DNA from: Candidatus Martarchaeota archaeon
Lineage (GTDB): Archaea > Micrarchaeota > Micrarchaeia > Micrarchaeales > CABMGC01
Assembly (NCBI GenBank): GCA_023476545.1
Contig: JAMCYP010000025.1
Span: 1 to 38,880 of the forward strand
DNA: 38,880 nt
Direction of reading: 5' to 3'
The notes under the pieces were generated by a model. The model was not told the origin of the DNA and searched no databases. It saw nothing but the letters and a program-made list of their open reading frames with translations. Every line of letters begins with the position of its first letter. Position 1 is the first letter of the stretch. Shown here in pieces: positions 25,421-32,837 of the stretch. The translations under genes were made by a program, and so were the position numbers.

Positions 25421-26158
25421 TCACTTTTTGGATCCACTCTTCCTTGACGCGACGGCCGGTGCCACTGGCCCCGAGATCTGCTGGCGTATCCTGACCAGCA
25501 AGACGTAGAACGCGTAGGCGAAGAACGTGCTGATGAAGGTGCCGATAGCAACCAGGCCCAGCAGCCCGAATATGACGCCGAATACCAGCGATATTATGTA
25601 TACGGCGATGAACATGACAATCACAGAGAAGAGTATGCCCCAGAAGTTGCCTTCAGTGATCGCCCAGCTGCTCTTTATCGAGTCCACGACTCCCTTCTTG
25701 CCGCTCATCACCTCTACCGGAGCCAGATAGAGCCTGACGAAAAGGTAGATGCCGGGTATCACAAAGAGCAAGAAGCCTATGCCGACAGCTACTCCCACAG
25801 CTATGAGCGTGATTATCAGTGTGATATATCTGCTTATCGAGTGGCGTGCAGCCGCGGCGACGTCCTTTCTCGTGTCAATGGTCGCGGAGAGTACAGAGCC
25901 TATAACGAATACGTCCACAAGATAGACGACAATTATGCCGCCGAGGATTGGTCCGATCACGGACGTTATGAACGGCAGTATGGCAGTCGGAAGTGTTCCG
26001 ATGCTTGAAATGCTGTGGACATACTGGGCTTGTGAGAGTATCATGGATGAGAAGATGCTGGCCACCAGCGCGCCGAGGAGCGCGAAGAGCGTGACCGTCC
26101 TGTTCCTGAAGAGCGTACTGAAACTGTCTCCAACAGTACTGAGCACATCAATTCCCAT
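25421..26158 (-). CDS. Polytopic membrane protein (DUF4013-like)
   Basis: 245 aa with multiple TMs; GIGFLLFVIPGIYLFVRLYLAPVEVMSGKKGVVDSIKSSWAITEGNFWGILF. Confidence 0.6.
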   Translation of the reverse strand: MGIDVLSTVGDSFSTLFRNRTVTLFALLGALVASIFSSMILSQAQYVHSISSIGTLPTAILPFITSVIGPILGGIIVVYLVDVFVIGSVLSATIDTRKDVAAAARHSISRYITLIITLIAVGVAVGIGFLLFVIPGIYLFVRLYLAPVEVMSGKKGVVDSIKSSWAITEGNFWGILFSVIVMFIAVYIISLVFGVIFGLLGLVAIGTFISTFFAYAFYVLLVRIRQQISGPVAPAVASRKSGSKK

Positions 26159-26202: not shown

Positions 26203-26525
26203 TCATCTCTGCGTTGCCATGGCCCCATCCAGAGACCTTGCGCATGAGCACTTTCTCGAAGCTGGCATCGAGGAGACCACTGTCCCTATGAGCTCCTTGG
26301 CCTTGCCTATGTTCTCGGCAAAAAGCCTTGTGACCTCTGCGAAGCTGACCGGCTCTATTCCTTCCTGGCGCTCAAGCCCCGCGTCATAGTCGGTGACTAC
26401 ACCTATCCGAGGTAGCAGATCTGCCGCTCGCTTGCCAGCATCGCCTCCGGGTACTGAGTCATGTTGACCAGCCCGAATCCCTGGTTTGAGAAGAACCTAG
26501 ACTCTGCTTTTGACGAGAACCCTGC
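26203..26525 (-). pseudogene. 3' remnant of S-methyl-5'-thioadenosine phosphorylase (MTAP/PNP family), frameshifted
   Basis: FSSKAESRFFSNQGFGLVNMTQYPEAMLASERQICYLG then, after restoring 1 nt near 26408, IGVVTDYDAGLERQEGIEPVSFAEVTRLFAENIGKAKELIGTVVSSMPASRKCSCARSLDGAMATQR*. Matches the MTAP C-terminal third; the N-terminal two-thirds are absent. Confidence 0.88.
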
Positions 26526-27284
26526 GTCTCCTTGCTCTTCGCTGTTGCGCTTTAGAGAGATCACGCTTATGATGACTGCGATGGCGCCCCCCACGGCAGC
26601 AGCAGCGCCCAGTGTTATCTCCCCATGCGCCATAATGAGATGTTTATGTGCAGCATCTAGCGCGCTCTGGTTTTCGACAACGCTCAGGCGAATGTGCTCT
26701 ATCACACTCTGGATGTGAGCTACCAGAAAGGTCTGAAACTTCCCTGTTACCCAGTTGAAGACGCCCTGTTGCTGGCCATTTGTGTATTGGATACCATCGA
26801 AGGTCAGCTTCAGCGCAGTGTTGCTTCCAAAAGATATGAACGAAGAGTTGCCCTGTGCGAGCAGTGTGGCGGTGATGGGTGACAACGCGGTTTGCGTCAC
26901 ACCTCCTCCTAAAGTTGCAACCTGTTTCAGCCCTTCTGTAACTATAGGGACCATTGTGCTGTTCCCTGCTGAAAGGGCATTGGAGAGGGATATCTGCGCG
27001 AATGTGTTTGTGGTACTGTTCCCTCCCGTGAAAATGGCCCATGTAGTAGGAAGCAGTACGCTTTGCACAAACCCCTGTCCTGAAGGAACAAACTTCTGCA
27101 ATGTGCTTATCGAGGTTTCGTTTACTACTTTAGGTATGCTTTCGGTAACAATCTGTGGAGCTACACGTGACGCGCTCTTCAACGCTAGTCCGGCTCCTTC
27201 CAAAGTAAGTCCGCTAGCGGCAGTTACGCCTCCGACAACAGCCATCGCCTTAGCGTGTCTCTCTATGTATTCTTTCACTGCCAT
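26403..27284 (-). CDS. Chimeric ORF: membrane protein of unknown function fused to MTAP fragment
   Basis: Residues ~1-255 contain hydrophobic N- and C-terminal helices (AMAVVGGVTAASGLTLEGAG; ITLGAAAAVGGAIAVIISVISLKRNS); the last ~37 residues are MTAP-derived. Confidence 0.6.
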   Translation of the reverse strand: MAVKEYIERHAKAMAVVGGVTAASGLTLEGAGLALKSASRVAPQIVTESIPKVVNETSISTLQKFVPSGQGFVQSVLLPTTWAIFTGGNSTTNTFAQISLSNALSAGNSTMVPIVTEGLKQVATLGGGVTQTALSPITATLLAQGNSSFISFGSNTALKLTFDGIQYTNGQQQGVFNWVTGKFQTFLVAHIQSVIEHIRLSVVENQSALDAAHKHLIMAHGEITLGAAAAVGGAIAVIISVISLKRNSEEQGDAGFSSKAESRFFSNQGFGLVNMTQYPEAMLASERQICYLG

Positions 27285-27325: not shown

Positions 27326-27334
27326 CGTTAGCGA
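27326..27334. repeat. Left copy of 9-bp target-site duplication CGTTAGCGA
   Basis: Identical to 31593-31601 and directly abuts the left terminal inverted repeat. Confidence 0.9.
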
Positions 27335-27351
27335 GGCTTTGCTAATAAAGT
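27335..27351 (+). repeat. Left terminal inverted repeat GGCTTTGCTAATAAAGT
   Basis: Exact reverse complement of 31576-31592. Confidence 0.92.
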
Positions 27352-27422
27352 AATCTCTGCTAATAAAGTCCGAAATCTGCTAAAAAAGTCAGGCTTTTAA
27401 GGCTTTTTTGGCAAATAGCACT

Positions 27423-28151
27423 ATGGCTACTTATAGCGAACCAGAACTTATCATCCCTACGCTCAGCTTGCTCAAAGAGCATTCTGCTGGCTTGAGGATG
27501 TCGCAGATAATACACGCTCTGCTTGGGGTATTAGCTCCTTCAGGGCACGATATGGACATAATCTCAGGAAGAGCGGACACTTATTTTAGTCAAAAAGTCA
27601 GAAACCTCAAATCCCACGATACCTTGACAAGAAAAGGTTTGGCTACCTACAATAATGGCATCTTCAAGATTACTGATGCTGGACTAAGGTATATTGAAGA
27701 AAATGTGCCGATACACGATGCACTCGTCTCTCAAGGATTTTCACAGAGGGATATAGACCAAGAGATTGAAAGCGACTATGATGGAATAATTATAGAAGAA
27801 GGTGCAGGAACAGAAAGATCAGCAGTCCAGCGAGAAAGGTCTGGAAGACTGCGAAACACTGCATTAAGAGAATTCAAGAGACGAAATGGAGGCAAATTGG
27901 AATGTTTGGTTTGCGGGTTCGACTTCGAGAAAAAATACGGAGAGTTAGGCCGAGATTACATAGAAATTCATCATAGGTCTCCTGTTCACCTTATGGATAT
28001 TCAAGGAACGCAAACGAGATTGTCAGAAGCACTTGAAAAAGTAGTCCCGCTCTGCTCTAATTGCCACAGAATGGTTCATAGAAAAAGGAGCACGGTCTTG
28101 TCGCCTGAAGAATTGAAACACATAGTCATAACTCAAGAAGGTAGGCAATGA
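27423..28151 (+). CDS. HNH endonuclease with N-terminal winged-helix region (restriction endonuclease-like)
   Basis: ATG 27423. C-terminal CLVCGFDFEKKYGELGRDYIEIHHRSPVHL...VVPLCSNCHRMVHR: HNH core with two CXXC; N-terminal SLLKEHSAGLRMSQIIHALLG...VRNLKSHDTLTRKGLATY. Confidence 0.88.
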   Translation: MATYSEPELIIPTLSLLKEHSAGLRMSQIIHALLGVLAPSGHDMDIISGRADTYFSQKVRNLKSHDTLTRKGLATYNNGIFKITDAGLRYIEENVPIHDALVSQGFSQRDIDQEIESDYDGIIIEEGAGTERSAVQRERSGRLRNTALREFKRRNGGKLECLVCGFDFEKKYGELGRDYIEIHHRSPVHLMDIQGTQTRLSEALEKVVPLCSNCHRMVHRKRSTVLSPEELKHIVITQEGRQ

Positions 28152-28441
28152 GGAGAATAAACGCAGATGTTAAAATAGTGAATGTGGTTGCAAGAGTAAA
28201 AACACCCCCTCTTGATTTATACAAGATGGCAAAGGCAAACAAGAACATGGTCTTCGACCAAGACTTGCGACTCGCTTGGCATCCAACTACCTGCGGGCAT
28301 GGGAACATAACCCTGATGAAAGGAGGCATCAGCATCGCTGGCGCAAGGTCTGTGAGAGAGGCTAAGAAAGAACTTGGGCTTTGTCTCAGCAGGTTAAAAT
28401 TTTACTACATAGGAGACGGGACTAAACGGCCAACGCCGTAA
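28148..28441 (+). CDS. Single-repeat TATA-binding-protein-like (TBP-like) domain protein
   Basis: ADVKIVNVVARVKTPPLDLYKMAKANKNMVFDQDLRLAWHPTTCGHGNITLMKGGISIAGARSVREAKKELGLCLSRLK aligns by eye with one archaeal TBP repeat (IENIVASV...LDLEKV...SSGKLVVTGAKSVQD...AVAKL). Overlaps the HNH stop by 4 nt. Confidence 0.75.
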   Translation: MRRINADVKIVNVVARVKTPPLDLYKMAKANKNMVFDQDLRLAWHPTTCGHGNITLMKGGISIAGARSVREAKKELGLCLSRLKFYYIGDGTKRPTP

Positions 28442-29603
28442 TTAGCTTCTTCTGGTTCTGCTTCACGTCGAGGTTGTGTATCACCAGATGCTTTACTTCC
28501 CTTTCGTTTCTTCCCTTTATGTTGTAGATGTAAGTTTTGCCAAATGACAGTATCTTGATACCTCTCTTTCTCTTGTAGAGGTTCAGTATAAACGGGGTTG
28601 ATTTTATTATAAGTACGAACTTCGCCTTCAGATTGATGACTATGTTCGCAAGCCGTTCTTGGTCTTCACGTGTAAATGGATTCTCTTCGTATTCACTAAA
28701 TTCTGTATCATAGGGGGGGTCAAGAAACACGAAGTCGTTCCCTGTGGGCTTATACTTCTCAAATATCTTTTCAAAGTCCAGATTCTCAATTTTCGCATTT
28801 GAAAGAACCTGTCTGACATCATCAGAAAATAGGCGATCGACCTTGTTTCTAAAGTCCTTATTGTTATAATTCATTCCTCCATATGGAACATTGAAGTCTC
28901 CAGAGTCATTGAATCTGAACATACCTCCGTAGCAAAATTCTCTAACAAAATAATAATTGGCCACTTTCTTTTCATCAGGTATTCCTATAAGTCCACGCTT
29001 ACTTCTGTTCATCATCTCTCTGAAGTGGATATAAAATCCACTTCTGAAAGCAGTTTCTATATTCTGCTTTATACTATCATTGCTGAAGTTATTTTCAGAA
29101 TCAAGATCCTTCTTGATGTGCTTAAGTTTTGCTATCACGTTTTTCTGCATTGTTTTTAACATGTTATCCCGGTCTAAACAGAACTTATTGTGGAATAATC
29201 CATTGAAAGCTAAAATCTCCCCATTGAAGAGCTTCACAATCCTGTTTTCGAGTTCAATATCGTCAATCTGGTTCCGTTTGTATTTGTTATATAAGTCAAG
29301 GAACTTGTCTCCGAAATTTGCCATATACTCATTGATGCGTTCCCAATACTTGACATAATAGTAGAGTTCTTTCTTGAACACCTCTCTCTGCTCACCATTG
29401 CAGAGCAATTTGTATATTAGCATCAGTTCTTGCGACCTGTCATTTATTACGGCATCAGTTGGTTGCAAATGGAAGAATAATGCGCCTCCTCCAAAAAATG
29501 GCTCAAAATATCTATCAAACTTTTTCGGTATAATCTTCTCAATGTATTTGATTTCGGAAGATTTACCTCCTGCCCATTTTATAATAGGTTTCACGTTAAA
29601 CAC
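28422..29603 (-). CDS. Dam-like adenine-specific DNA methyltransferase (D12 class)
   Basis: IIKWAGGKSSEIKYIEKIIP (motif X), YFEPFFGGGALFFHL (motif I), DFVFLDPPYDTEFSEY (motif IV). Confidence 0.93.
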   Translation of the reverse strand: MFNVKPIIKWAGGKSSEIKYIEKIIPKKFDRYFEPFFGGGALFFHLQPTDAVINDRSQELMLIYKLLCNGEQREVFKKELYYYVKYWERINEYMANFGDKFLDLYNKYKRNQIDDIELENRIVKLFNGEILAFNGLFHNKFCLDRDNMLKTMQKNVIAKLKHIKKDLDSENNFSNDSIKQNIETAFRSGFYIHFREMMNRSKRGLIGIPDEKKVANYYFVREFCYGGMFRFNDSGDFNVPYGGMNYNNKDFRNKVDRLFSDDVRQVLSNAKIENLDFEKIFEKYKPTGNDFVFLDPPYDTEFSEYEENPFTREDQERLANIVINLKAKFVLIIKSTPFILNLYKRKRGIKILSFGKTYIYNIKGRNEREVKHLVIHNLDVKQNQKKLITALAV

Positions 29604-29744
29604 CGAATAGATGTGTGGCTAACGCTAACAAAGAGGCATCACCCAAAAGCAAAAGAGAGCTATCTCTTGTTATGCGTTTTAGCTCGTACGCAGTTCTACT
29701 AAAAAGATTAGGTAAGAAAAAGGATTTATTACTTGCTATCCCTT

Positions 29745-29999
29745 TCATTTTTTCGCCCTGACCTTCATCACCTCTTTCCCGTTCTTGCCATTCTTGACAT
29801 ACGGCTTGTTCCAATAAGGAGACTTACAAGCAGGATTAGGGCATACAGTAGGCAGTTCATCGGTTCTGGGTATCCATTCGTGTCCGCACCTTGTGCAATG
29901 CAGTTTATGCTCGAACTCAAAACCACAATGAGGGCACTTAATCATATTGAGGGGTTCGATGCTATTGCTTTTAACCTTTTCGTTATTGACTTTAGCCAT
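29745..29999 (-). CDS. Small zinc-ribbon protein
   Basis: 84 aa: MIKCPHCGFEFEHKLHCTRCGHEWIPRTDELPTVCPNPACKSPYWNKP; several CXXC knuckles; SD-like GAGAGG upstream of ATG. Confidence 0.75.
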   Translation of the reverse strand: MAKVNNEKVKSNSIEPLNMIKCPHCGFEFEHKLHCTRCGHEWIPRTDELPTVCPNPACKSPYWNKPYVKNGKNGKEVMKVRAKK

Positions 30000-30083
30000 A
30001 TATACCTCTCCTCAACCTTTATAATATATTATTCAAGGTATATAAAACTATCTTCTCTTTATCGGACTTCCTCAACTATACTG

Positions 30084-30101
30084 ATAGGTATATATACCTA
30101 T
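30084..30101. promoter_or_regulatory. 18-bp perfect palindrome ATAGGTATATATACCTAT in the divergent Zn-ribbon/transposase promoter region
   Basis: Directly read; contains AGGTATATA in both orientations, and a further AGGTATATA lies at 30036-30044. Confidence 0.6.
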
Positions 30102-30133
30102 GAGTATATAGTTATATCGAAAGGAATGGTCTT

Positions 30134-31342
30134 ATGGAATACCAGAAATTGATGCAGATAAGGAAGGAGAAGGGTAAGGAAATTGCCTCTACCAAGAAGG
30201 TGAGGCGAGAAGGAAAATACTGGATAGTCCCTTCACAAAGCAGAGACGCACAATACAGGGTTGAACTGACCATAGCGGGAGCGACCTGCACGTGCCCAGA
30301 TTACGCCAAGAGAGGCGTAAGGTGTAAGCATGTCTGGGCAGTGGAATACACCATAGAAAAGAAAACCAACGTTGATGGCTCAACAACGATAACGCAGACC
30401 AAGCGCATAACCTATCCGCAGAACTGGTCTGTCTACACACAGGCGCAGAACGCAGAGGTAAGGCTCTTTGACGGCTTGCTGAAAGACCTTGTCCAGAACG
30501 TGCCAGAGGAGGCGCAGACTATGGGCAGACCACGCATACCTCTGAAAGAGGCAGTCTTTTGCTCCATACAGAAGGTCTATTCTGGGCTTTCAAGCAGAAG
30601 GGCACATTCGCTATATGAGTTTGCTCAGGAAAGACAACAGATAGTGAAAGCACCTAACTACAACACGATAAACTTGACCCTGAACAGACCTGAACTGACT
30701 CCTATACTGCATAACCTTCTTGCCATATCTGCGCTGCCCCTACGAAGCATAGAGACCACTTTCGCAGTAGACTCTACAGGTTTCAGGACTAACCGCTTTA
30801 GCGAGTATGCAAGCGACAAATACGGCACTCCGAAGATGCACGATTGGGTAAAGTTACACGGCGTCTGCGGAACTACCACGAACATAGTGTGCGCCGTGTC
30901 GGTAAGCCCAGAAAGGTCGGGCGACTCTCCGCAATTAGAGCCTCTTATCAGGGAAACCGCACAAGCAGGTTTTCAGATAAAGGAAGTCCTTGCGGATAGC
31001 GCCTACGCCTCACGCAAGAACTATGAAGTCATAGACGAACTCGGCGGAACTGGCTACATACCTTTCAGGGCATACACAAGCGGAAATGCACGAGGCAGCC
31101 TTATATGGAAGAAAGCATTTCTGTTCTTCCAGAACCACGAAGCAGAGTTTATGGAGCATTACCACAAGCGCAGTAATGTGGAGACCACGTTTATGGCGAT
31201 AAAGACAAAGTTCGGCGACACGCTCAAGTCAAAGAACGAAATAGCGCAGGTGAACGAACTCCTGTGCAAACTCATAGCTTACAACCTTTCAGTAGTGATT
31301 GCGGAGATGTTCAATCTGGGCATACAAGCAAACCTCAAGTAG
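30134..31342 (+). CDS. DDE transposase with N-terminal SWIM zinc finger (IS4-superfamily-like)
   Basis: SWIM: CTCPDYAKRGVRCKH. Catalytic: TTFAVDSTGF (D), KEVLADSAYASRKNYE (D), EHYHKRSNVETTFMAIKTKFG (Y-2-R-3-E-6-K). Confidence 0.88.
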   Translation: MEYQKLMQIRKEKGKEIASTKKVRREGKYWIVPSQSRDAQYRVELTIAGATCTCPDYAKRGVRCKHVWAVEYTIEKKTNVDGSTTITQTKRITYPQNWSVYTQAQNAEVRLFDGLLKDLVQNVPEEAQTMGRPRIPLKEAVFCSIQKVYSGLSSRRAHSLYEFAQERQQIVKAPNYNTINLTLNRPELTPILHNLLAISALPLRSIETTFAVDSTGFRTNRFSEYASDKYGTPKMHDWVKLHGVCGTTTNIVCAVSVSPERSGDSPQLEPLIRETAQAGFQIKEVLADSAYASRKNYEVIDELGGTGYIPFRAYTSGNARGSLIWKKAFLFFQNHEAEFMEHYHKRSNVETTFMAIKTKFGDTLKSKNEIAQVNELLCKLIAYNLSVVIAEMFNLGIQANLK

Positions 31343-31575
31343 AGCTGTTAAGTATTTCCGAAAAGAACCTTTCGGCACTACTTCGTTTTGGGCAATATGT
31401 AGCACTTATTGGAGATGTTATCCGTATTCTCCCATCCCTCTTATCTTTGAAGACAACAAGTCCATACACTTCAACTCTACCTCGTCTTCGAATTATTTTG
31501 AATCCAGCCATAGATTACCCTATATGACTTGCTCGTAAAGTCTTAAGAATGCTAATTTAGCAAGTCAGAAATCTG

Positions 31576-31592
31576 ACTTTATTAGCAAAGCC
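31576..31592 (-). repeat. Right terminal inverted repeat (reverse complement GGCTTTGCTAATAAAGT)
   Basis: Exact reverse complement of 27335-27351. Confidence 0.92.
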
Positions 31593-31601
31593 CGTTAGCG
31601 A
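31593..31601. repeat. Right copy of 9-bp target-site duplication CGTTAGCGA
   Basis: Identical to 27326-27334. Confidence 0.9.
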
Positions 31602-31622: not shown

Positions 31623-32837
31623 CTATTTCTTCTGCTTTCGGCCAGTGGACTTGCGTCTTCTGTAAGCGAAGACAGCTATAGCCGCCACCACAACAATAAT
31701 AGCAACACCAACAACCAGGGTAGTCGCTCCTTCGCCACTTACACTCACGAAGTAGTTGTCGGAGCCAGAGAACTGCTGGTTCACGGCGCCGTTGGGCTGC
31801 TTCCACTGCTCGTAGAGCGTGACCGGATAGTTGCCCGGCACTCCTTGCGAGTCGACGCTGACCAGGAAGGTCACGTTCTGCGTCGCTCCCGCCGGCAGGC
31901 TTGCTATGTATGCGGTGCTTGCCACGGGCGTTATCGGATAGCTTGACTGGAGGCTGAGCTGCACCTGCTGCGCGGCGCTCGTCCCGGTGTTCGTTATGGT
32001 GAAGCTGACAGGCACGTCGGTCGCCCCTGGGCCGTAGCTCGCTCCGGCTCCGGTGCCTATGCTGAACTGCGCTGCTGGCGCGATCGAGATGTTTATTGGC
32101 TGCGTGCTCGAGAAGCTCTGGCCCAATGTCGAGGAATAGTAGGACGTAGACGCGACGATGTTCGCGATGCCGACGTTCTGCGACGCTATGAGGAGCGGCT
32201 CGCTGACGCTGGATCCCTGGGTGAGGTTGGAGATGAAGAAGGTGGTCACTGAGCTGAGTATGCTTATTCCAGGTCCTCCAGAAACCGCCACGGTCACGTT
32301 CCTGGCTGTGCCATAGCCAGCGTTCTCTATCACAAGGTCGACAGTCTGGTTCTGGCCGCTGTACAGGGCGGACGGCTCCGGGCTTGACAGCAGCACCTTT
32401 ATCGCAGGCTTGTTCTGCACATAGAAGCTAACGGGCATCGATGACGACGCCACCACCTCTGTGGCCCCCAGCCCATAGTAGCTGGCGTTGAAGTGCACAG
32501 TGTAGGTGCCTGAGGGAGTTGTGGCCGGTATCAGGAAGGTGTAGTTGTAGTATGGCTTGTTCACTCCGGGGTTCACCTCGAATATGTCTGTGCTGTTAGC
32601 CGGAGACATGTTGAATATAGGATAGCTGCCGCTTGCCTGAAGATTGACTGTTTGTACGAAGGATCCGTAGGAGTTGTAAAGTTGGAAGCGTATGGTCGCG
32701 CTTCCACCAGCCACTACTGGATTCGGAGACACCGACACGTTATGTAGCGATAACGCGTTGTCAAGAACAGACTGTGCGCTAACCGCGCAAGTGAGCGCGA
32801 GGAGCGCCACAAACACCCAGAGAATTTTCGTTTTCAT
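31623..32837 (-). CDS. Exported S-layer/CARDB-type protein (COG1361-like), C-terminal TM
   Basis: Signal peptide KILWVFVALLALTCAVSAQ, repeated CARDB-like segments (VLLSSPEPSALYSGQNQTVDLVIENAGYGTARNVTVAVSG), TM VVGVAIIVVVAAIAVFAYRRRKSTGRKQKK. Confidence 0.75.
   Translation of the reverse strand: MKTKILWVFVALLALTCAVSAQSVLDNALSLHNVSVSPNPVVAGGSATIRFQLYNSYGSFVQTVNLQASGSYPIFNMSPANSTDIFEVNPGVNKPYYNYTFLIPATTPSGTYTVHFNASYYGLGATEVVASSSMPVSFYVQNKPAIKVLLSSPEPSALYSGQNQTVDLVIENAGYGTARNVTVAVSGGPGISILSSVTTFFISNLTQGSSVSEPLLIASQNVGIANIVASTSYYSSTLGQSFSSTQPINISIAPAAQFSIGTGAGASYGPGATDVPVSFTITNTGTSAAQQVQLSLQSSYPITPVASTAYIASLPAGATQNVTFLVSVDSQGVPGNYPVTLYEQWKQPNGAVNQQFSGSDNYFVSVSGEGATTLVVGVAIIVVVAAIAVFAYRRRKSTGRKQKK

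Follow-up and report, generated by a model that had tools for sequence, protein, structure and literature searches.

The open reading frame on the minus strand at positions 26403 to 27284 stays open for 293 codons, and the question it raises is whether it is a single gene or the record of a lost enzyme joined to its neighbor. The window analyzed here, 38,880 bp in length, makes up the whole of contig C13 in a Candidatus Martarchaeota genome, G000, which comprises 760,819 bases in 25 contigs and is 87.5% complete. It was compared with six genomes of the same genus (G001, G002, G003, G004, G005, and G007) and with G008, which belongs to another genus, among other relatives.

An MTAP remnant at the end of a membrane protein

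According to our analysis, the open reading frame encodes a 253-residue, one-helix membrane protein, here called fusN (26526 to 27284, minus strand), followed in frame by a 38-residue tail derived from S-methyl-5'-thioadenosine phosphorylase (MTAP), and the frame runs uninterrupted through the junction. The last 38 residues match the NCBIfam models PRK07823 (E = 8e-11) and TIGR01694 (E = 7.7e-8) at model positions of about 161 to 199. As the reference we used the intact 282-residue MTAP of G005. The tail (block 1, 26406 to 26519, minus strand; residues 256 to 293 of the open reading frame) corresponds to residues 178 to 215 of this enzyme, to which it is 84% identical, and it shares 71% identity with the MTAP of G003. 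The remainder, residues 216 to 282 and the natural stop codon at 26205 to 26203, lies in another frame (block 2, 26203 to 26406, minus strand; coding part 26406 to 26206) and is 61% identical to the G005 protein. When the DNA is aligned with the intact G005 and G003 genes, the single-nucleotide frameshift falls within 26404 to 26410 on the minus strand, one base being missing at the frame change, near 26406 to 26409. MTAP residues 1 to 177 have left no trace within the window. The initial annotation, made from the sequence alone, had read the MTAP C-terminal end, the one-nucleotide frameshift near 26408 followed by the expected MTAP tail, and the loss of the N-terminal two-thirds in the same way. 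It had placed the junction at about 26520; the junction is present, and we refine it to about 26519 to 26526 (minus strand), where similarity to MTAP begins at GGTTCTC with codon 178, which leaves 38 MTAP-derived residues in the open reading frame.

The surviving part is homologous to true MTAPs. Of 33 positions with a conservation of 90% or more among 31 MTAPs of relatives, it retains 31. Like known MTAPs (TIGR01694 and PF01048; archaeal structure 1v4n), with which it aligns over residues 178 to 282, it has the NMTQYPE and TDYD motifs as well as the cysteine-rich C-terminal end. Unlike them, it is missing the first 177 residues and the rest is split by the frameshift, so it cannot be an enzyme; against the full-length TIGR01694 model it scores 32 bits compared with the curated 274.85 and covers only positions 161 to 196 of 240. 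Its pN/pS relative to G005 is 0.26, compared with 0.31 for the intact pair G003 and G005, a rough measure since synonymous sites are near saturation. Together with the conserved positions, these values indicate that most of the divergence accrued under constraint and that the decay is therefore recent.

A remnant in the ancestral position of MTAP

In G003 and G005, the genes leuS, two ABC-transporter genes, and a CARDB/NEW3-domain gene are followed directly by an intact MTAP, and in G008 the order from the ABC genes through the intact MTAP is the same. The window holds the same genes, with the CARDB/NEW3-domain protein, the ancestral upstream neighbor of MTAP in all three genomes, encoded at 31623 to 32837 (minus strand). 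On the other side, 45 bp separate the stop codon of the remnant from a UPF0259-like membrane protein gene (25421 to 26158, minus strand), whose homologues follow MTAP or fusN in relatives; the corresponding gap in G003 is 32 bp. Given these shared neighbors, the remnant is the MTAP orthologue in place. A search of the whole genome, at its 87.5% completeness, found no other MTAP, and the missing 12.5% could contain one. Within that limit, a disabled copy stands at the ancestral locus and no working copy is present in the genome; the remnant is a recent, local unitary pseudogene, the in-place orthologue joined to a neighbor.

That completeness also leaves room for the remnant to be a partial duplicate of a working MTAP encoded outside the assembly, as does the MTAP of G016, which is located elsewhere than beside the CARDB gene. 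We consider this unlikely, since the remnant occupies the ancestral MTAP locus itself and three congeners, two of them 93 to 97% complete, are likewise without MTAP. In these three, G001 (97% complete), G002 (93% complete), and G004, the locus is present and MTAP is absent from it. G007 retains a different remnant (L029, 5054 to 5377, on its contig C18), a 37-residue internal piece of about residues 72 to 108 with a stop codon upstream, fused in frame with the C-terminal portion of a transposase that is 85% identical to the transposase in the window. The tree of three neighboring proteins (support 67 to 100) pairs G000 and G005 (support 67) as well as G001 and G007 (89), with G002 and G004 outside. 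As G005, with an intact MTAP in the ancestral place, is nested among genomes that lost it, at least three losses are implied unless G005 regained the gene. MTAP has thus been lost repeatedly in the genus.

The same comparison bears on whether the junction or the frameshift could be an artifact of assembly or sequencing. The genome is metagenome assembled and fragmented, but the sequence on either side of the junction is in the right neighborhood, with the CARDB gene upstream and the UPF0259-like gene just past the MTAP stop codon, a congener shows an independent and different MTAP remnant at the same locus, and other congeners have no MTAP, so we deem an artifact quite improbable.

Two possible correlates of the loss were considered and dropped. 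Spermine_synth matches (E < 1e-29) occur in 5 of 60 relatives and in none of the genus, which offers no contrast for a link with polyamine synthesis, and the next step of methionine salvage (PF01008) is present in G003 and absent from G005 and the MTAP-less congeners, which are too few cases. Within the literature searched, which covered sources other than subscription journals and preprints, we found nothing joining Micrarchaeota with MTAP.

fusN and the origin of the join

Residues 1 to 253 of fusN have no match in Pfam, NCBIfam, or PADLOC, and hydropathy shows one clear C-terminal hydrophobic helix at residues 223 to 242. The initial annotation had called the upstream residues, about 255 in its count, unrelated. 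This holds with respect to MTAP and to the databases, but they are not foreign to the locus, as G001, G005, and G007 have homologues no more than a few genes away from it. According to a profile search, fusN relatives occur only in these three genomes, all near the MTAP locus (261 residues in G001, 208 in G005). This genus-restricted protein evolves fast; the homologues are 26 to 33% identical to fusN (32% in G001). The AlphaFold model of fusN, with a mean pLDDT of 35.7, was unusable for assigning a fold, and weak PDB matches to coiled coils (E of 0.01 or worse) were taken as chance.

Wherever relatives have fusN, it is a separate, standalone gene, and the fusion to MTAP was found in none of 60 relatives. 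The recombination event proposed initially is supported by this and by the intact MTAP at the locus in G003, G005, and G008. That the 293-residue open reading frame could be a functional fusion, its MTAP-derived tail recruited for a new role, is very hard to credit: the frame is indeed open across the junction and the tail well preserved, but no relative shows the fusion, an in-frame join is expected in one-third of random joins, and the out-of-frame block 2 is also well preserved, so that preservation reflects recency. The join being in frame is a matter of a one-in-three chance, and selection is not needed.

We therefore hold with considerable confidence that MTAP decayed recently at its ancestral locus, that its codon 178 became joined to fusN, and that an IS903-like transposon inserted later. 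In this proposed course of events, a rearrangement, presumably a deletion, would have taken MTAP codons 1 to 177 and brought codon 178 up against the 3' end of fusN next to it, in place of the last codons and the stop of fusN. The G001 homologue ends at about the point where MTAP sequence starts in the window, which suggests that the join cost fusN little beyond its stop. A one-base frameshift disrupts the rest of the MTAP tail. If expressed, the predicted fusN product would bear a 38-residue, MTAP-derived cytoplasmic tail, probably neutral and without enzyme activity since two-thirds of the fold are missing. The transposon, with its methyltransferase and HNH endonuclease genes, later inserted between the CARDB gene and fusN.

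The position of fusN complicates the rearrangement. It lies upstream of the MTAP remnant in the window, downstream of MTAP in G005 and G007, and after the membrane gene in G001, so a single deletion from a G005-like order is insufficient. The G000 and G001 versions of fusN resemble each other more closely than they do the shorter form of G005 and G007, and the upstream copy may on this account have arrived separately; either fusN of the G000/G001 type would have done so or a duplication would have preceded the deletion.

Truncated and frameshifted where the gene originally stood, and with orthologues still intact in relatives, the remnant resembles ordinary prokaryotic unitary pseudogenes and fusions born of deletions. 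The only departure is that the loss recurs at one locus within a genus.

A unit transposon adjoins the remnant

Upstream of fusN, a 4258-bp unit transposon occupies positions 27335 to 31592, bounded by perfect 17-bp terminal inverted repeats GGCTTTGCTAATAAAGT and by a 9-bp target-site duplication CGTTAGCGA (left copy at 27326 to 27334, right copy at 31593 to 31601). Its G+C content is about 35 to 51%, lower than the 50 to 62% of its flanks. The transposase (30134 to 31342, plus strand) combines a SWIM zinc finger (PF04434) with a DDE_Tnp_1 domain (PF01609, E = 2e-25), the closest NCBIfam model being IS5. The cargo comprises an HNH endonuclease (27408 to 28151, plus strand; PF01844 over the cut-off, with a weak Mrr_N match, PF14338, below it), likely a restriction enzyme, and a Dam-family (D12) DNA adenine methyltransferase (28422 to 29603, minus strand; PF02086, E = 1.7e-36; TIGR00571 over the cut-off; PADLOC MTase_II).

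Reconstruction of the empty site from the 9-bp duplication places the CARDB gene directly beside fusN, with no MTAP between them. The transposon thus landed after MTAP had left that position, which is the order of events that had been proposed initially. The alternative that the transposon split MTAP and left the N-terminal part on its other side was rejected, as the stretch from the transposon to the CARDB gene holds no MTAP sequence.

The ends of the element are of the type described for IS903B, which has the inverted repeats GGCTTTGTTGAATAAATC and the direct repeat CTCAGATGC (PMC10569121). As in IS903, of the IS5 family, the ends read GGCTTTG, the target duplications are 9 bp, and the transposase is of the DDE_Tnp_1 type. 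The ends and the duplication are those of the IS903 group of the IS5 family, but the transposase scores below the curated IS5 cut-off (NF033579, 122.4 bits versus 140). In contrast to IS903, the transposase carries an N-terminal SWIM zinc finger, and the elements described here measure 2.6 to 9.3 kb and have cargo genes.

In G007, a contig end opens with the same inverted repeat, which lies 54 bp upstream of the fusN homologue (L043, 3757 to 3797, contig C36), and we infer that the two G007 contigs, this one and that of the MTAP piece, are neighbors. Since flanks and orientation differ from those in the window, two separate insertions near MTAP are likelier than one, and a single ancestral insertion common to G000 and G007 is not favored. 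The 9-bp duplication CATTAGTGT next to that inverted repeat is common to two other contig ends of G007 (L050, 233 to 249, C34; L051, 1047 to 1063, C46), which probably flank a single additional insertion on either side. In G001, a stretch comprising a zinc-ribbon gene and the transposase promoter region (L046, 1432 to 2001) is 81% identical in DNA to positions 29590 to 30174 of the window, whereas the transposases of the two elements are only 45% identical in protein, a contrast that suggests mosaic exchange between elements.

A transposon family with defense cargo across the order

The transposase was detected at E of 1e-30 or lower in 33 of 165 genomes of the order. For 30 copies, we sought 8- to 10-bp duplications next to inverted repeats without fixing the end sequence in advance; elements could be delimited at 21, and the best match had a 9-bp duplication in every one of these. 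Controls gave 9 matches in 90 shuffled and 4 in 30 reversed sequences, so a few of the weaker element calls may be wrong. The ends share GGCTTTG, with bases 2, 5, 6, and 7 invariant across the 42 ends. The delimited elements carry the SWIM/DDE transposase and cargo genes; members besides that in the window include L048 (94 to 5554), L049 (119 to 5704), and L055 to L080.

Of the 21 elements, 14 encode a DNA methyltransferase (found by Pfam scan in 13, and in L065 through its near-identity to L064), usually next to restriction or defense partners that vary from one element to another. These are an HNH protein, a specificity subunit with DUF3800, AIPR/AbiU-like and SocA/Panacea proteins, Vsr, the MamI endonuclease (three nonredundant elements), or type IIG-like enzymes. 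A further element encodes DruA alongside a HerA-like ATPase. No relatives of the element methyltransferases were found in 196 kb of flanking DNA. Nearly identical MamI-type transposons occur in two different families of the order (L065, 2354 to 11103, in G042; L064, 6019 to 10993, in G094), and the G042 copy, in which some segments are repeated, has the look of a tandem or nested insertion. The largest delimited element (L061, 136 to 9419, in G045) holds an unusual mix of an Eco57I-type enzyme, a ParB_N protein, and a proteasome-like (Ntn-hydrolase) protein.

On balance, we lean toward the view that compact IS903-like unit transposons exchange restriction-modification and other defense cargo across the order, and that independent landings at the MTAP locus of two congeners accompanied the loss of MTAP. 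The family is apparently undescribed: literature other than subscription journals and preprints yielded no account of these transposons, which is weak evidence of novelty.

Significance

The remnant is real, correctly read, and biologically ordinary. It clearly illustrates how an enzyme that has been lost can go unseen when automatic annotation labels what is left a "hypothetical protein." What makes it interesting is that one genus of reduced archaea has given up MTA salvage repeatedly and recently, and that a member of the defense-carrying transposon family lies beside it. The neighboring transposon matters more than the remnant. If its relatives routinely carry differing methyltransferase or defense modules, they would provide a mobile, easily delimited record of the movement of defense genes between very small archaeal genomes.
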